A stretch of 12,714 bases of DNA from Deltaproteobacteria bacterium RBG_13_61_14 (GTDB lineage Bacteria > RBG-13-61-14), in contig MGQK01000055.1 in the NCBI GenBank assembly GCA_001797815.1, positions 14,979 through 27,692 on the forward strand, read 5' to 3'. A program made the position numbers and the translations under genes. This document shows positions 2,502-9,777 of this stretch, piece by piece; position 1 is the stretch's first letter, and each line of letters begins with the position of its first letter. The notes under the pieces are model-generated. The model searched no databases, was not told the origin of the DNA, and worked only from the letters and a program-made list of their open reading frames with translations.

Positions 2502-2565
2502 GGAACCAGAAACCAGGAACCAGAAACCAGGAACCAGAAACCAGGAACCAGAAACCAGGAACCAG
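2502..2565. repeat. Tandem heptamer array, GGAACCA/GAAACCA alternating
   Basis: Four exact copies of a 14-mer made of two related heptamers (GGAACCA + GAAACCA) run from 2502 to 2557, followed by a partial copy (GGAACCAG) to 2565. That is nine consecutive heptamers with alternation of G and A at the second base. It begins 28 bases after the stop codon of the FecR-like gene. All units have the same orientation, so the array itself does not fold into a hairpin. Confidence 0.95.
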
Positions 2566-2636
2566 TCGGGCAGGGTCCGGCCAGAACAGCGGAGCGCCCG
2601 AGGCTTCTCCATTCCTGCTTCAGCCAGCGCGGAAAA

Positions 2637-2657
2637 GGGTGAAGGGTGAAGGATGAA
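2637..2657. repeat. Short tandem heptamer array, GGGTGAA type
   Basis: Three head-to-tail heptamers: GGGTGAA (2637-2643), GGGTGAA (2644-2650) and GGATGAA (2651-2657), followed by a degenerate GGGAGGG. It lies 39 bases beyond the stop codon of the zinc-ribbon gene. The unit differs from the 2502-2565 array, but the period is the same. Confidence 0.8.
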
Positions 2658-2696
2658 GGGAGGGAAACTTTTTCCGGAATTCTCTTCTTTCCCTGG

Positions 2697-3542
2697 CTAC
2701 TCCTGGTCCGAAGGCTCCGGTAAATAATCCGTAGGTTCCGATAAATAATCCGAAGGTTCCGGTTCCGGTTCGGGCTCGGGTTCAAGCTCGGTTTCCAGCT
2801 CGAGCTCGGTTTTGGTCCCGACCAGCCCCTCGCCGTATTCATCCTTGGACCATCGCCGGAGATCTTGGATCAGCACGTTGGTGGTGATCGTGGAGCTGCC
2901 CTTGATATCGAACGACAACGGGAACCCCATAATGCGGGTCTCGACCGTTAGCTCGATGGCCACTTTCAGGGTCATAAACGAGATCCCCGCCGAGCTTAAA
3001 AGCATCTTGGATAAAGGCTTGCCGTCCACTTCGGAATAACTGATCCGAATGCGATCGTCTTTGATGGTAAAGCCATAACCCTTGGCCTGTTTGCGGATCA
3101 TGGAGCGAACCCCATCCGGCGTCATGTTGGCGGAAGCGGAAGCATCGCTGGACACATCCAGCTCGAGCTTGGCCCGATTACCGTAGGTCTTGATGAACGA
3201 CCCGGAAAAGGTGAAGAGGGCGCCGGCCAGCGCGGCCAGGATCAGGATGAGGACGAACCGCTTGGTCGCGGCCTGAGCCTCCACCCGGCGGAGGGCGTCC
3301 CGGTCCACCCCAGGCCCAAAGCGGGAGTATCCTTCCCCGGCGGGCGGCGGGGGCGGCGTCGAACCCCGGGCCCAGCCCGGCGATGCATCCGAGCCCGGCG
3401 CGGCCCATCCTGGCCCAGCCTCCGGGGCCGGCGGCGGCGCGGACGGCCGCTGCTCCCGGGGCCGATATTTCGCCACGATCACCCCGCACTTCTGGCATTC
3501 CACTGCATCCGCCTGCTCAAACCCGCATTTCGGACAAATCAT
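2697..3542 (-). CDS. Zinc-ribbon, single-pass membrane protein with an acidic repeat tail; function unknown
   Basis: The protein has 281 residues. The N-terminus holds a zinc-ribbon-like pair of CxxC motifs (C3, C6, C16, C19) in the pattern CPKCG...CQKCGVIVAKY, recalled from many deltaproteobacterial membrane proteins. Residues 30-70 are Pro/Gly-rich. One hydrophobic helix at about 96-116, preceded by K94-R95, suggests a cytoplasmic zinc ribbon and a C-terminal domain (about 120-240) on the outer side. That domain has beta-like segments (IKDDRIRISYSEVDGKPL). The tail (about 245-281) is strongly acidic: Glu-Leu and Glu-Pro dipeptides, then EPSDYLS/EPTDYLP heptapeptides from a DNA repeat. An AGGGAG sequence 6 bases before the ATG supports the start. 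It follows the kinase gene by 36 bases and is probably co-transcribed. I do not recognise a function; an envelope partner of the kinase is only a guess. Confidence 0.8.
   Translation of the reverse strand: MICPKCGFEQADAVECQKCGVIVAKYRPREQRPSAPPPAPEAGPGWAAPGSDASPGWARGSTPPPPPAGEGYSRFGPGVDRDALRRVEAQAATKRFVLILILAALAGALFTFSGSFIKTYGNRAKLELDVSSDASASANMTPDGVRSMIRKQAKGYGFTIKDDRIRISYSEVDGKPLSKMLLSSAGISFMTLKVAIELTVETRIMGFPLSFDIKGSSTITTNVLIQDLRRWSKDEYGEGLVGTKTELELETELEPEPEPEPEPSDYLSEPTDYLPEPSDQE
2713..2754 (-). repeat. 21-bp tandem repeat encoding the acidic C-terminal heptapeptides
   Basis: Two adjacent 21-bp units (2713-2733 and 2734-2754) differ at only a few positions and encode EPTDYLP and EPSDYLS on the minus strand. 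A partial unit precedes them on the + strand side (about 2705-2712). A degenerate 6-bp GGTTCC/GGCTCG-type repeat follows to about 2820 and encodes the Glu-Pro and Glu-Leu dipeptides. The end of this gene therefore appears to have grown by repeat expansion. Confidence 0.85.
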
Positions 3543-3578
3543 GCTTCGCTCCCTTTCCTGGCGCCCTCAGGCGCGGCT

Positions 3579-6500
3579 TCAACCGGCGATCGGCAAGGAC
3601 ACGGTGAATTCCGTGCCCTCTCCCGGACGGCTTTCCATCCGAATCTCGCCCCGATGCCGGTGAATAATCTCCTTGACAACGCTCAAGCCCAAGCCGGTGC
3701 CTTTGCCCTCCGGCTTGGTCGTGAAAAACGGATCAAAGATCTTGTCCAGGTGCTCCGGCTTGATCCCAATCCCGGTGTCGCTCACCCTGACCTCCACCAT
3801 CTCAGCCTTGCCTTTACCGGCGGTAATCACTACCCGGCCGCCGCCCTTCTCGCCGCAGGCATAGCTGGCATTGGTCAAGAGGTTAATGAACACTTGCTGG
3901 AGTTGGTCTTTCACACCCCAGACCAAAGGCAAGTCCTCCGGAATCCGGGTCTCGATGCTCACCTCGCCCCGGCTGACCTCGTAGCGGCTCAGGGTCAAGG
4001 CCTGCTTGATTACCTCGCCCACGGGCACCGGCCCCGTCTCTCCCGCCGAGGGCCGCGCATAGCTCATCAGGTTCTGGATCAGTCCCTCGATCCGGTTCGC
4101 CTCCTCCAAAATCCGCTTTAGCCGCTCCTGGTTTTTGCTCAAAGGAGGTGGCTGCTGCCGGAGCAGGATCTGGGCATAAGAAGAGATCGCGGTCAAGGGG
4201 TTGTTGAGCTCGTGGGCGATGCTGGCCGCCATTTGTCCGAGCGAGGCCAACTTCTCGGAATGGAGGATTTGGGCCTCCAGTTGCTTGAGCCGGGTGATGT
4301 CCTGGCCGATGGCCACGAAGCCCTGGAACTCTTCGTTGGCATCGCGCAGGGTCGAAGTGTTGAAGACTGCTTCCACCTCCTGCCCGGTCAGAGTCTTTAA
4401 CCGGACTCGAAGATTGACCAGGGATTCGCCCCGGCGCACCTGCGCTTCCAGCTCTTTAAACGAGCCCTCCGGCTCCACCCGGAGAAATTCCCGTAAGAGC
4501 TCTTCCAAGGTGCGGCCCAACACTTCCTCGCGGGAACGGCCGATCAGCTCGGCAAAGGCCCGGTTGAAGATGGCCACCCGGCCCCCTCGGTCCAGAACCA
4601 GGATCAAGGCGTTGGCGTTCTCGATCATCGTCTCCTGGAAACTGCGGAACCGGTTGATCTGCTGGTAGAGGTAGTAATTGCCCAGGGCGGAGGACAGGTG
4701 CAGGCTGAGCAGTTGCAGGAGCGCCAGGTCGGCCGGGGGGAAGGCCGGGTCGTGGTGCGACTCGAACGCGATCACGCCTACTAGTCGGTTCTCGAAGATC
4801 AAGGGAAACAGGGCCATGCTCTGGGTATCGGGCATCAAGGCGGGCAGGCGGGGATCGTTTTGCTTGAACAGGAGCGGGCCCTGGGCTTGCAAGAACTCCG
4901 TTTCGAACTCCGGGGAAATCGCCACCGGCTGGCCGAGGAACTGCTGGGGCAGGTTGCCCAGGTAGGAGTAGCGAAAGTGGCGGGCTTGCGGCGGCCGGAA
5001 AGCGATGCTGAGGTGAGCGCGGGGGAACACCTCCAGCAAGGGACGGCAATAAGTTTCCAGGAGTTCGGGCAAGGGGCTGTTGATCGGGGTCTCGCGGGAA
5101 GCGCGGATCAGGTTTTCCAGCAGGCGGTTGCGCCGGAGCAAGGTCTGGCGTTGCCTCTGGGTTTCCTGGTTCAGCCGCGCATGGGCCAGGGCCAGCGCCA
5201 GTTGTCCGATCACGGGTCCGAGCAGGGCCAGCTCCGAAGGGCCATAAGCGCCGGCCCGGGTGCTGCCCAGGATCAGGCTCCCCAATACCTCCTCCTGGAA
5301 CTGCAGCGGCAGGCAGATCAGGCCTCGGATCCCCTGACTCTGCAGGCGGGCCAGCCTCTCGCTCAGGTCGCGGGACCGAAACCGCGAGGTGAGCAGGGAA
5401 ACGTCTTCGTAAAACTGTGGCTGACTCTGGAAGAGGATGGCACTGATCCGGTCATGGTCATCTTCCATCAGGATGAGTCTCCGTTGCATCTGGCCTTGCT
5501 CATTCGGGCCCAGCACCGCCAGCGTGTTCTCCTCCCGATCGGCAAAGACCACAGCCGCCACCTGGAAAGGAACCAGTCTCCCCAGGTGAGCGAAGACGGC
5601 CTCTAACGACTCCTCCAGCGAGGCCCGGGTCCGGAAAGAATCCACCACTTCCCGCGCCACCCGCAGTTGATCCTCCGGTTGGACCCGCGCCGGCTCCAGG
5701 GCCGGCCGTTCGGAGGTGTCGCGAAGGAAGAGAAAATAGCCGAGCACCCCGGAGCGTTCGTCCCCCAGCCAGGAAGCCAGGTGATGCATCTCCACCATTG
5801 AGCCGTCGCGCCGGCGGAACTCGAGTCGGCTCTCGCTCCGGCCTTCCCGCCCCAGGTTCCGAAGTCGCTCCGAAAAGTCCGCCCGGCTCGCCTCGGTCAG
5901 GAACCCTTCCAGGGGTCGCCCCGCGGCCTCGGCCGCGGAGTAACCCAACTGCGCCTCACACGCCTGGTTCCAAAAAGTGATACGGCCGTCCAGGTCCAGG
6001 GTCAGGATCGGAAAGAGCCCGTGCTGGAGCACCTGCTCCTTGAAAGCCGCGAGCCATTGCTGCTCCTGCTCGGCGCGGCGCAGCGCCGTGACATCGTGGA
6101 GCACGACCAGGAACTCGTTGCGGCCGGGGATGGGAATCGCCGCGCTCCGGGCCTGGCGCCGGTCCCCGCTTTCGGGCCGCGTCAGGGCGAGCTCAAACTC
6201 CACCCGCTGGCCCTGGCGCACTTTCTCGAACGCGGCCATGCCCTGGACATGGGCGAGCCCTTGCAGGTAGCGGGTGAAGGAATGGCCGGCAGGATCCTCC
6301 CCGGTCAAGGCGCGGCCGGCCGGGTTGCTCCGGTTGATGATGGTGTCTTCTCCGATCATCAGGATCGCATCGGGGCAAAGGTCCAGCAACGACTCCAGGT
6401 AAGCGGTGTCGGGCGACTCCGCCGCCGGTCCGCCGGCCCGGTCCAGGTCCACGATCTGGGTGCTCCCCAGATAGGCCTGGGTCTTGAACTCCGCGGTCTC

Positions 6501-8432
6501 CCCGATCTTGCGCACCACCGTGGCCATCCGCTCCGCGCTCTCCGAGATCGCATTCACCGCGTTCTTGAGCGAGGCCAGCGCCGGGTGCTGCGGCGCGACC
6601 TCGTAAAAGCTCCGCTCCACCCGCCGGAGGATCTCGGCATAGCCCAGGATCGAGGTCAGCGGCTGGTTCAACTGGTGCGCGGCCGCCCCGGCCAGGGCCA
6701 CCAGGGCCTCCCGCCGGCGCGACTCCATCAGCCGCTCCTGCGCCTGGCGCAGCTCCTTCTCGATCTTGATCCGGTCGCGGAGGTCGTGGAAGATGCCCAC
6801 GCTCGCGATCTCCCGGCCGTCCTCGTAAATGATGGAAGCCGACATGTTGATGGGAATCTCTTCCCCGTCTTTGCCCAGAATGGTGTTGGAGCAGGTCTCG
6901 AGTTTGCCCACCCCGCCGTAGTCGGGGCTGCGCAGCTTGCGCATCACGTCCCGGGCCACTCCCGGCGAGTAAAAGTCCACGATATTGATCTTCCCGAGCA
7001 CTTCCTCCGCCCGGTAGCCGGAGATCCGCTCCGCCCCCTCGTTGAACAGCACGATCTTGCCCTTGAGGTCTGCGGCAATGATCGCGTCCATGGTTCCCTG
7101 GATGACCTTCTCCAAAAACTCCTTGGTCCGACGCAGCTCCAGGCTGAGTTGCCGCTCCTCGGTCACATCCAAAAGCGAAATCAGGTATTCGTCGCGCGGC
7201 CCGGGCAGCGGCTCGAAGTGGGCGGTGGCCAGACGCTGGGACTGGTCGCGGCAGAACAGGCGCACGTTCACGCTTTGGGAGATGCGGTCCCCGCGCAGGA
7301 GTCGGGAGAGGGATTTGGCCGGGGCCGTCTCTGACAGCAGCACCTGGTCGAGCGGCCGGCCTTGGGCTTCGCTCTTCTCGTAGCCCGAAAGCCGGAGGAA
7401 GTTCTGGTTCACGTCGGTGATGGTCCCCTCCCGGTCCACCACCAGGATGCCGTCCGAGGCATGGGCGAACAGGGCCTCCAGCCGGAGGGAGGATTGGGCC
7501 AGTTGAGTAGCGTCGGCCTCGGCCTTCTGCCGGCCGCGCATCTCCGCGAGCACGTTCCGCGCCAGACGCAGGTTCTTGAGCGCGGTCGCGGTGGTGTTGG
7601 CCACCAGTTCCAGGAAATAAATCTCGGTGGGAGAAAATTTCCGCCGCTCTTTTTCCGAGCGGAGGAACAAGAGCCCGATGATCTCGTCCCGGTAAAGAAT
7701 CGGCGCGGCCAAAAGCGACTGCAAGGGCTTGTGCCGGATGAACTCGCGCACCTCTTTCATCAGCGGGTGGCGGCTCACGTCCGGGATGGCGAGCGTCTTC
7801 TTGGTCTCAATCACCTTGCGCAGCTCCGGGTACTTGCTCAGCTCCAGCCGGATGTTCAACTCCTGCGGCCGGTCCCCCTGGGTGACCACGTAACCCGTCC
7901 GGCGGTCTTCGGTCAGGAGCACCACCGAGCAGCTCGCCCCCGCAATCAGCTTCTCCAACTCGCGGGCGGTCCGGTTGAGGATGGTCACGTCATCGGGCTC
8001 GCTCCGCATGAAGCGGGCAATCCGGTTCAGCGTTTGGATCCCGGCCTGCACCGTCTCCGCGTCCTCGAGCAGTTGCTCCTGGTGGAGCACGCGCTCTAGG
8101 CGGAACTGAAGCTTGTCCAGTTTTAACGGCGGGAATAACAACTCGTCGGCCGGCAAGGAGCGCCGGGAAGCGCGGGAGGCCTGCTTTCCCGGAGCCACCA
8201 CCAGGATGGGCAGCCGCCGGGTTTTCGGGTGGCGGCGCAGCTTTAGGGCCAAATCCTGAAAGCCCGGGCCGAGCAGGGCCGCGGCGAATTCCTGGCCGCG
8301 CGCCCGGGCCAAGGCCGCGGCCGCGGATTCGCAGAAGCGGACCGCGTAGCCGCTCCGCTCGAGCCCGGATACCAGTCGGTGCAGCGAACCGCGCCGCTTG
8401 TCCACCACCAGCAAAGGATGGGTTTGCGTCAC
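3579..8432 (-). CDS. Giant soluble multi-PAS/GAF sensor histidine kinase with a pseudo-receiver and two DHp domains
   Basis: The protein has 1617 residues and no obvious membrane helix, so it is probably cytoplasmic. Domains by eye: receiver-like fold without phospho-acceptor Asp (1-118); GAF (about 145-295); PAS (about 315-428); PAS (about 438-555); a DHp with H586 in [10 protein letters not shown] (about 560-650) but no ATPase domain after it; PAS (about 676-785); PAS (about 795-910); two GAF-like domains (about 925-1090 and 1115-1260); PAS (about 1268-1385); DHp with H1407 in IAHELNNPL; HATPase_c (about 1505-1617) with N1517, DTGIGI (1552-1557), FDPFFTTK (1566-1573) and a GKGTGLGL box. The last pair is a complete kinase core that should autophosphorylate H1407. 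No output receiver is attached, and the partner is unknown. The start is GTG, overlapping the larC stop (GTGA), with AGGAAGG 7 bases upstream. The ligand cannot be told from sequence. Confidence 0.93.
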
Positions 8433-9628
8433 TGCCGGACCTTCCTGGATTGGGGAGAGCGGGTCGAACCCGACTGGCGCAGCACTTCCGCCTCGATCTC
8501 GGCCAGCGTCCGTCCGGTGCGGCGGGCGAGGCGGCGGAGGTCATCGTATTCGGGGTGCGCCGTTTCCCTCCGGTCCGGGCGCAGCGCCCACTTCACCCGC
8601 ACCTTTCCGAAGCGGGTGGCCACGGTCTCGGTGCGCCGCGGCAGCACGGTGCGGTAAAGTTCGCGGTAACGCACGCCCAGGGTGGTGGAATGCAGGAAGA
8701 GCGTGCGAAGGATGGTCAAGCGGTCCTGGGGCCGGGCCAGCACCTGCAGAAGCGCGCCCGGCCGGTTCTTCTTCATCTGGGCGGGAAGCACCAGCACGTC
8801 CAGGGCGCCGGCGGCAAAGAGCTGCTCCATCAGGTAATCGAACCGCTCGGCCGGCAGGTCGTCGAGGTTGGCCGCCAGTTCCACCACCACCGTGTCCTCG
8901 CCGCCGGCCAAGACCTCGCCCACGATCAGGCGGAGCAGGTTGGGCCGGCCCGGAAGCCGGCGATCGCCCAGGCCCACCCCGGTCTTCTCCAGGGTCATGG
9001 CCGGCAGCGGCCCGAAATCCTGGGCCAGGGTCCGGACCAGGGCCGCGCCGGTGGGCGTAACCGTCTCGCCCTCAGCCGCGCTGCCGTAAACCGGCACGCC
9101 CCGGAGCAGGGCCAGGGTCGCGGGCGCCGGGAGCGGGAGCAGGCCGTGAAGGCAAAGGACTTCCCCTCGGCCCAGCGGCAACGGCGAGCAGAGCACCCGG
9201 TCCACCCCCAGCGCCTGCAGCCCGGCCACCGTGCCGACCACGTCCACAATCGCGTCCACCGCGCCCACCTCGTGGAAGTGGACCTCCGGGACCGGCACCC
9301 GGTGCACTTTCGCCTCGGCCCGGGCCAGGGCCGCAAAGACCGCGATGCTTTTTTCCTTGACCTCCGGAGACAAGCGGCTCCGCCGGATCAGGCGGGTGAT
9401 ATCTTCGAGGTTGCGGTGGCGGGGACGCCGGCCGGTCAGTTCCACCCGGAGCTTAAGCCCGGCCAGGCCTTGCTCTTGCCGCCGGCGGAAGTGGAGGCGG
9501 TAGCCGGAAAGCTTGAGCCCGGCCAGGGCCTCCTGGATCCCGCGCGGACCGATCCCGGCATCCGCCACCGCGGCCAAGGCCATGTTGCCGGAGACTCCGG
9601 CGAAGCAATCGAAGTAAGCGATACGCAT
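8429..9628 (-). CDS. larC: LarC, nickel-pincer cofactor cyclometallase (nickel insertion)
   Basis: At 399 residues it has the usual length of an unsplit LarC (DUF111 family). In the known pathway, LarC uses CTP to insert nickel into pyridinium-3,5-bisthiocarboxylate mononucleotide, giving the nickel-pincer nucleotide of lactate racemase and related LarA enzymes. Recognisable motifs are the N-terminal YFDCFAGVSGNM (5-16), HFHEVGAVDAIVD (117-129), TPTGAAL (191-197), NLDDLP (254-259) and QMKKNRPG (284-291). The usual GDM of the first motif reads GNM here (N15), a conservative change of possible interest. The frame is intact, unlike the Lactobacillus plantarum gene, which needs a frameshift. The ATG at 9628 matches the family N-terminus but has no good Shine-Dalgarno, and a large hairpin lies just upstream. 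It overlaps the kinase gene by 4 bp. LarE, the sulfur-transfer step, is not in the window. Confidence 0.95.
   Translation of the reverse strand: MRIAYFDCFAGVSGNMALAAVADAGIGPRGIQEALAGLKLSGYRLHFRRRQEQGLAGLKLRVELTGRRPRHRNLEDITRLIRRSRLSPEVKEKSIAVFAALARAEAKVHRVPVPEVHFHEVGAVDAIVDVVGTVAGLQALGVDRVLCSPLPLGRGEVLCLHGLLPLPAPATLALLRGVPVYGSAAEGETVTPTGAALVRTLAQDFGPLPAMTLEKTGVGLGDRRLPGRPNLLRLIVGEVLAGGEDTVVVELAANLDDLPAERFDYLMEQLFAAGALDVLVLPAQMKKNRPGALLQVLARPQDRLTILRTLFLHSTTLGVRYRELYRTVLPRRTETVATRFGKVRVKWALRPDRRETAHPEYDDLRRLARRTGRTLAEIEAEVLRQSGSTRSPQSRKVRQ
8440..8446 (-). promoter_or_regulatory. Ribosome binding site fixing the GTG start of the giant kinase
   Basis: On the minus strand, AGGAAGG lies within the end of larC, 7 bases before the GTG at 8432-8430. 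The receiver-like beta strand (HPLLVVD) begins a few residues later, so later GTG codons would cut into the fold. The 4-bp overlap with the larC stop suggests translational coupling. Confidence 0.7.
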
Positions 9629-9644
9629 CGTTAGAATCCGGAGA

Positions 9645-9770
9645 TCGTATTCCGTATTCCGTATTTCGTATTTCGTATATCGCGACCCAGCGATGGATCA
9701 ATCCCATTCATTTGGCACCCCAATTCAAAACAAACTATACGAAATACAGAATACGGAATACAAAATACGA
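9645..9770 (-). repeat. Inverted pair of GTATTYC heptamer arrays forming a 35-bp-arm hairpin between larB and larC
   Basis: The left array at 9647-9681 reads GTATTCC twice, GTATTTC twice, then GTATATC. The right array at 9741-9768 reads GAAATAC, AGAATAC, GGAATAC, AAAATAC, which are reverse complements of the same family. The 35-base arms 9645-9679 and 9736-9770 match at 31 of 35 positions around a 56-base loop. In RNA read from the minus strand, three of the four differences become U-G wobbles, leaving one C-A mismatch. In + strand RNA only one is a wobble. The hairpin starts 7 bases after the larB stop and ends 16 bases before the larC ATG. There is no U-run typical of an intrinsic terminator. 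The stretch is very AT-rich compared with its surroundings. Confidence 0.93.
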
Positions 9771-9777
9771 AATTCAT

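Follow-up and report, generated by a model that had tools for sequence, protein, structure and literature searches.

Heptamer arrays in two gaps of the window

The window analysed here, meaning the whole 12,714-bp stretch of DNA, covers positions 14979-27692 of contig MGQK01000055.1 in the Deltaproteobacteria bacterium RBG_13_61_14 genome (4.74 Mb in 132 contigs). Four tandem heptamer arrays lie in its two largest gaps, at 2474-2696 and 9629-9777. The preliminary description had placed both gaps within a series of minus-strand genes; the ORF table bears out their rank in size, but the first one is flanked by a plus-strand gene and a minus-strand gene. In this gap, a GRAACCA array on the plus strand (2502-2565) comprises nine units in which GGAACCA and GAAACCA strictly alternate over 64 bp, constituting a 14-bp higher-order unit. 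It is followed on the same strand by 3.7 units of GGRTGAA (GGGTGAA/GGATGAA; 2635-2660). An inverted partner was seen neither for the GRAACCA array within 2474-2696 nor for the GGRTGAA array at 2635-2660. The second gap is the larB-larC spacer of 149 bp (9629-9777), in which a GTATTYC array (9646-9682) and its inverse, ATACRRA (9737-9773), both given on the plus strand, form the left and right arms of a hairpin. The arms fold with a z of -6.8, calculated as DNA, and for the centre (loop) between them, at 9683-9736, no relatives were found in plasmid or phage collections.

At a self-match score of at least 10, the window contained four period-7 runs, compared with a mean of 0.07 and a maximum of two in 300 second-order Markov resamples, and no run at periods 5, 8, 9, 10, 11 or 13. 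All arrays that had been noted earlier were recovered, with coordinates that were exact or off by a few bases. A 21-bp (3 x 7) repeat of the zinc-ribbon gene (2707-2763) had been listed alongside them. The repeat corresponds to seven codons and its three heptamers, TCCGAAG, GTTCCGG and TAAATAA, are mutually unlike, so we set it apart from the heptamer arrays as a coding repeat. Separately, the gene for a DUF6600 protein carries a 120-bp tandem repeat (1829-2118; 2.4 copies, 88%) that encodes part of a proline-rich tail.

Period-7 arrays and their unit families across the genome

We took a census of tandem arrays in 582 kb of the genome, picked blind to motif, with a score cut-off of 11. While 58 arrays had period 7, the numbers at periods 5, 8, 10, 11 and 13, chosen for comparison as not divisible by three, were 2, 5, 4, 1 and 1, respectively, and shuffled DNA gave at most two runs at any period at this cut-off. 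An additional 140 kb yielded 11 period-7 arrays, and the pooled samples correspond to a density of ~95 per Mb, extrapolated to ~450 per genome. Tandem Repeats Finder, applied to 722 kb, reported 49 arrays of period 7 and 24 of period 14, compared with 8, 6, 7 and 8 at periods 8, 10, 11 and 13. The period shared by the arrays of the window is a property of the genome, not one on which three loci happened to agree, and the scan revealed neither a broad spread of periods nor a confinement to these three places. By this estimate the genome contains several hundred intergenic heptamer arrays, and the window has four of them. Based on coding calls from a simple home-made gene caller, which assigned 82% of the DNA as coding, 51 of the 58 period-7 arrays in the 582 kb were intergenic, and arrays of periods 6 and 12 were mostly coding. 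The idea that decayed arrays make up a large share of the intergenic DNA was rejected, as no residual period 7 was detected after masking.

At least eight unit families recur in the genome. The main units among 95 arrays in 712 kb were AAAATCY, AAAGYCT, AACCAGR, ACATACG, AAGGGTG, ACACCTG, ACAGTGC and ACTGCCT. A few families dominate, compared with more than 1000 possible heptamer necklaces. Each family of the first gap also occurs elsewhere: in the genome searched, three-unit patterns of GRAACCA (19 matches on 7 contigs) and GRRTGAA (16 matches) were found, and their reversed patterns gave none. The arrays have a G+C content of 44%, compared with 60% for the genome, and GGG runs are missing from most families, including the largest one (ATTTTRG). 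The G/A and C/T variation between units, described at first for the window, holds genome-wide, with 107 transitions and 68 transversions between neighbouring units. In addition, a 14-bp self-match exceeded the 7-bp self-match in 16 of 42 longer arrays. Mutation of single units followed by block-wise re-amplification would be expected to produce both patterns.

Inverted pairs, hairpin elements and their gene context

Arrays of the same family lying no more than 250 bp apart were inverted in 25 cases and direct in one. Between 250 and 8000 bp, no such bias existed (16 inverted and 14 direct). Considering the 25:1 ratio at close range, much of the array population consists of hairpin elements; about half of the arrays, including GRAACCA and GGRTGAA of the window, lack an inverted partner. 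The largest family forms a palindrome of ~76 bp with arms of 4.4 heptamers. For the AATCC hairpins, the palindromic pattern gave 81 overlapping matches in the genome and the reversed pattern none. In the 14 copies that we inspected, the span was 76 bp in six, 77 bp in two, and 55, 62, 69, 70, 83 and 90 bp in the rest, where the extents were set by a rule stepping 7 bp at a time and the length of the centre was left free. The centre measured 14 or 21 bp in most of these copies, and arm spacing was mostly constant modulo 7. While most hairpin centres bear no visible relation to each other, some are shared: one is common to L024 6755 and L024 10142 and another to L058 17863 and L337 6615, a sequence starting with AGCTGGA being one such shared centre.

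A single arm orientation was found in each family. The G/T-rich arm comes first in 23 hairpins of the genome and second in two, or in ~6 families and 2 when counted by family. A strand polarity as a general law was rejected on these family counts and on 30 versus 26 hairpins in other genomes, since descent within families suffices. Considering the near-fixed span of 76 bp, the modulo-7 arm spacing, the partly shared centres and the single orientation, many copies within a family appear to share ancestry as hairpin elements. The preliminary description had proposed a common generating mechanism rather than descent from one element; the first half agrees with a period shared genome-wide, but the contrast with descent is not supported, as copies within a family appear descent-related.

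Two genomes of the same order that belong to another family were compared. The larB-larC gap of 149 bp, in which the hairpin fills ~9647-9773, measures 8 bp in both relatives, and the aminotransferase-hom gap of 94 bp, which contains an 80-bp hairpin, measures 4 bp in both. The simpler reading of these gaps would be a gain of the hairpins in the present lineage. A loss in the ancestor shared by the two relatives is less simple, and it keeps some plausibility because both belong to another family.

Several other hairpins lie 3-12 bp from a stop codon between codirectional genes, several of them within compact operons. Arrays were found in 15 of 102 divergent or convergent gaps and in 31 of 198 codirectional gaps, which indicates no bias in gene context. 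A role as terminators was rejected, as convergent gaps had no excess and no terminator-like site was found in 2400-2750. Likewise, a selected RNA hairpin was rejected: arm covariation was not seen, in that two arms of one element matched no more closely than arms taken from separate elements, and the window had no Rfam match. The even gene context and the missing covariation fit neutrality.

Two functional readings bear on the same data. The hairpins might be transcribed and act on mRNA, through decay, partial termination or the balance of genes in operons. While the strong folding of the window hairpin and the positions just past stop codons of codirectional genes would suit such a role, the first array gap without a terminator-like site, the window without an Rfam match, the arms without covariation and a gene context equal to background make it improbable. 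Alternatively, each family could provide sites for a putative oligomeric DNA-binding protein, with the inverted pair as a two-sided platform. Three heptamers equal two helical turns, and the geometry resembles the opposite-strand paired sites of Geobacter metallireducens (PMC2700814). However, the units comprise at least eight unrelated sequences, divergent and convergent gaps are not preferred, and several arrays sit in compact operons a few bases past a stop codon, and we regard binding sites as an unlikely explanation as well. For annotation, heptamer hairpins can lengthen operon spacers without implying regulation.

Heptamer repeats in other bacteria and the origin of the seven-nucleotide step

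A scan of other genomes with the three-unit GRAACCA pattern gave at least 120 stretches, with many phyla among the matches listed. Around these listed matches, with the seeds excluded, 800 kb contained 66 period-7 arrays, 18 arrays of period 8 and one each of periods 5 and 11. In 38 genomes of other families, 17 period-7 arrays were found in 556 kb, concentrated in few genomes. Heptamer-rich genomes are sporadic, and the set of words differs from genome to genome. Inverted pairs numbered 56 in other genomes, and direct pairs 35. AATCC hairpins of similar size also occur in genome G202 and in two IMG/VR contigs. Among 289 other genomes, three-unit arrays of AATCYRA were present in 17 (reversed, 4) and those of GRRTGAA in 11 (reversed, 2), and GTATTYC arrays in none. 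Since GRRTGAA and AATCYRA are, as single words outside arrays, 1.9-2.3 times commoner than their reversals, and since GTATTYC was absent from all of these other genomes, a sharing of words across phyla was not established.

Arrays of this type, which the preliminary description had mentioned for deltaproteobacterial-type genomes and cyanobacteria, are indeed on record for one deltaproteobacterium (G. metallireducens, PMC2700814) and for cyanobacteria. As represented in PMC4679880 and PMC4692102, Mrazek et al. (2007) found heptanucleotides to be the most abundant class of long simple sequence repeats in most prokaryotic genomes, sporadically distributed across bacteria, and put forward the polymerase footprint as a hypothesis for the preference for 7 nt. 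A common 7-nt generating step is therefore not a new idea but, by the account in PMC4679880, a proposal of 2007. As far as those two papers describe it, that survey counts tandem arrays and assumes an origin by slippage, whereas close neighbours of the same family are inverted as a rule here. Cyanobacterial STRR heptamers and the TAACTGA repeats of Beggiatoaceae are tandem, intergenic and present at many loci (PMC4692102, PMC4679880). Such LSSR/STRR repeats share with the present arrays the excess over other periods, the many loci and the intergenic location, although the TAACTGA sets are nearly all direct (169 direct sets and one indirect), in contrast with the inverted pairing here. GGGAATC of Xanthomonas and GGGGA(C/T)T of Nostoc are intergenic heptamers at more than 100 loci, usually with ~4 units (Rehm et al. 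2015, PMC4692102), and one Xanthomonas genome has 70 close inverted heptamer pairs (PMC4692102). These repeats resemble ours in their intergenic location, many loci and close inverted pairs (25 versus 1 direct here), but each has one dominant family capable of forming G-quadruplexes, in contrast with the at least eight families here, the largest of which (ATTTTRG) lacks GGG and forms a hairpin of near-fixed 76 bp. In G. metallireducens, several multicopy families of 3-5 short units are paired on opposite strands (Aklujkar et al. 2009, PMC2700814); one class has five heptamers (MTYCTGA) and another family four (GGACCGG) (PMC2700814). The class 3 sites, with five tandem heptamers on opposite strands, resemble the present hairpins, whose inverted arms have ~4-5 heptamers, while unit lengths in that species vary (5, 7, 8 and more; PMC2700814), 7 dominates here, and the sequences differ. 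MTYCTGA, the class 3 unit, was not among the consensus units of the 95 arrays in 712 kb.

The heptamer excess, the intergenic location and inverted pairs (PMC4692102) were already published, as was the presence in a single deltaproteobacterium of several families of paired heptamers or octamers (PMC2700814). Added here are a sparsely sampled lineage (three genomes of the phylum in the set), a single period common to at least eight families, a family of near-fixed 76-bp size, the strong prevalence of inversion among close pairs, and two gaps whose counterparts in relatives are compact. In the literature, we found no tested explanation for the heptamer dominance among bacterial repeats reported in 2007.

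As for the origin of the arrays, local slippage might suffice, with chance duplications in place, 7 nt favoured by the DNA held in the polymerase, and common words recurring as seeds. The recurrence of the heptamer excess in unrelated bacteria (PMC4679880, PMC4692102) and the higher frequency of GRRTGAA and AATCYRA as single words argue for it, since common words would seed more arrays. Slippage accounts for the dimers and the 7-bp steps, yet it leaves the 25:1 inversion, the near-constant 76-bp span and the shared centres unexplained, and the dominance of a few families also speaks against it. We consider slippage as the sole cause doubtful; inversion, near-fixed size and shared centres fit the copying of hairpin units. 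It seems very unlikely to us that a dedicated activity works on either side of a break or junction, adding or copying DNA 7 nt at a time and leaving facing arrays around a filler. If true, it would explain one period across many sequences and the inverted pairing, and also the leading G/T-rich arm and the mostly unrelated centres with lengths usually a multiple of seven.

The explanation that we moderately favour treats the arrays as hairpin elements, mostly neutral, which spread as whole units and grow or shrink 7 bp at a time. Hairpins of ~55-155 bp would have been gained at gene junctions, some within compact operons, and the arrays would be their two arms. Some agent may have copied the hairpins as units to new sites, as suggested by the partly shared centres, the single orientation per family, the near-constant length of the largest family and the insert-free relatives at two sites. 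Slipped-strand replication or recombination would then add or remove units in steps of 7 or 14 bp, to which the spans of 55, 62, 69 and 76 bp and the alternating dimers point, and the step itself may reflect a property of the replication machinery. The elements would most likely be passengers, either neutral or mildly selfish, whose presence between genes is tolerated. With at least eight families, hairpins of near-fixed size and relatives free of the insert, strain sequences could separate the insertion of units from local slippage.

REP/BIME sequences and MITEs are likewise short, many-copy intergenic palindromes tolerated between genes. The present hairpins differ from them in having heptamer arrays as arms and in that Y1/RAYT genes are not close. 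Inverted arms are present, and inspection of the 14 AATCC copies by eye showed no evident target-site duplication. The Y1 transposase family (PF01797) has 19 matches in the genome (L291-L307), mostly in frames of ~320 aa, and 5-6 in the two relatives. Y1/RAYT transposases were rejected as the vehicle, since arrays were not enriched near Y1 genes (0.16 versus 0.14 per kb; 18 of the 19 matches).

Other repeats were observed alongside. Some Y1 loci have repeated termini of ~28 bp. A dispersed 138-bp element, which looks like a MITE, has terminal inverted repeats CTTGCCCTCCCTCA...TGAGGGAGGGCAAG and inner palindromes GGGCGCGATTTATCGCGCCC and GGGCGCAATGAATTGCGCCC. It is mostly intergenic and without an Rfam match, and 712 kb contained roughly a dozen copies (L031:4576-4713, L040:3175-3312, L045:12597-12734, L054:11118-11254, L058:9282-9421 and others). 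A second repeated element consists of ~21-22 bp units (GGGGTGGTTGCYGMGCAGAAT) and carries heptamer arrays of varying families on both flanks (L039:15044-15161, L045:2151-2264, L050:7193-7288 and L029:3676-3727).
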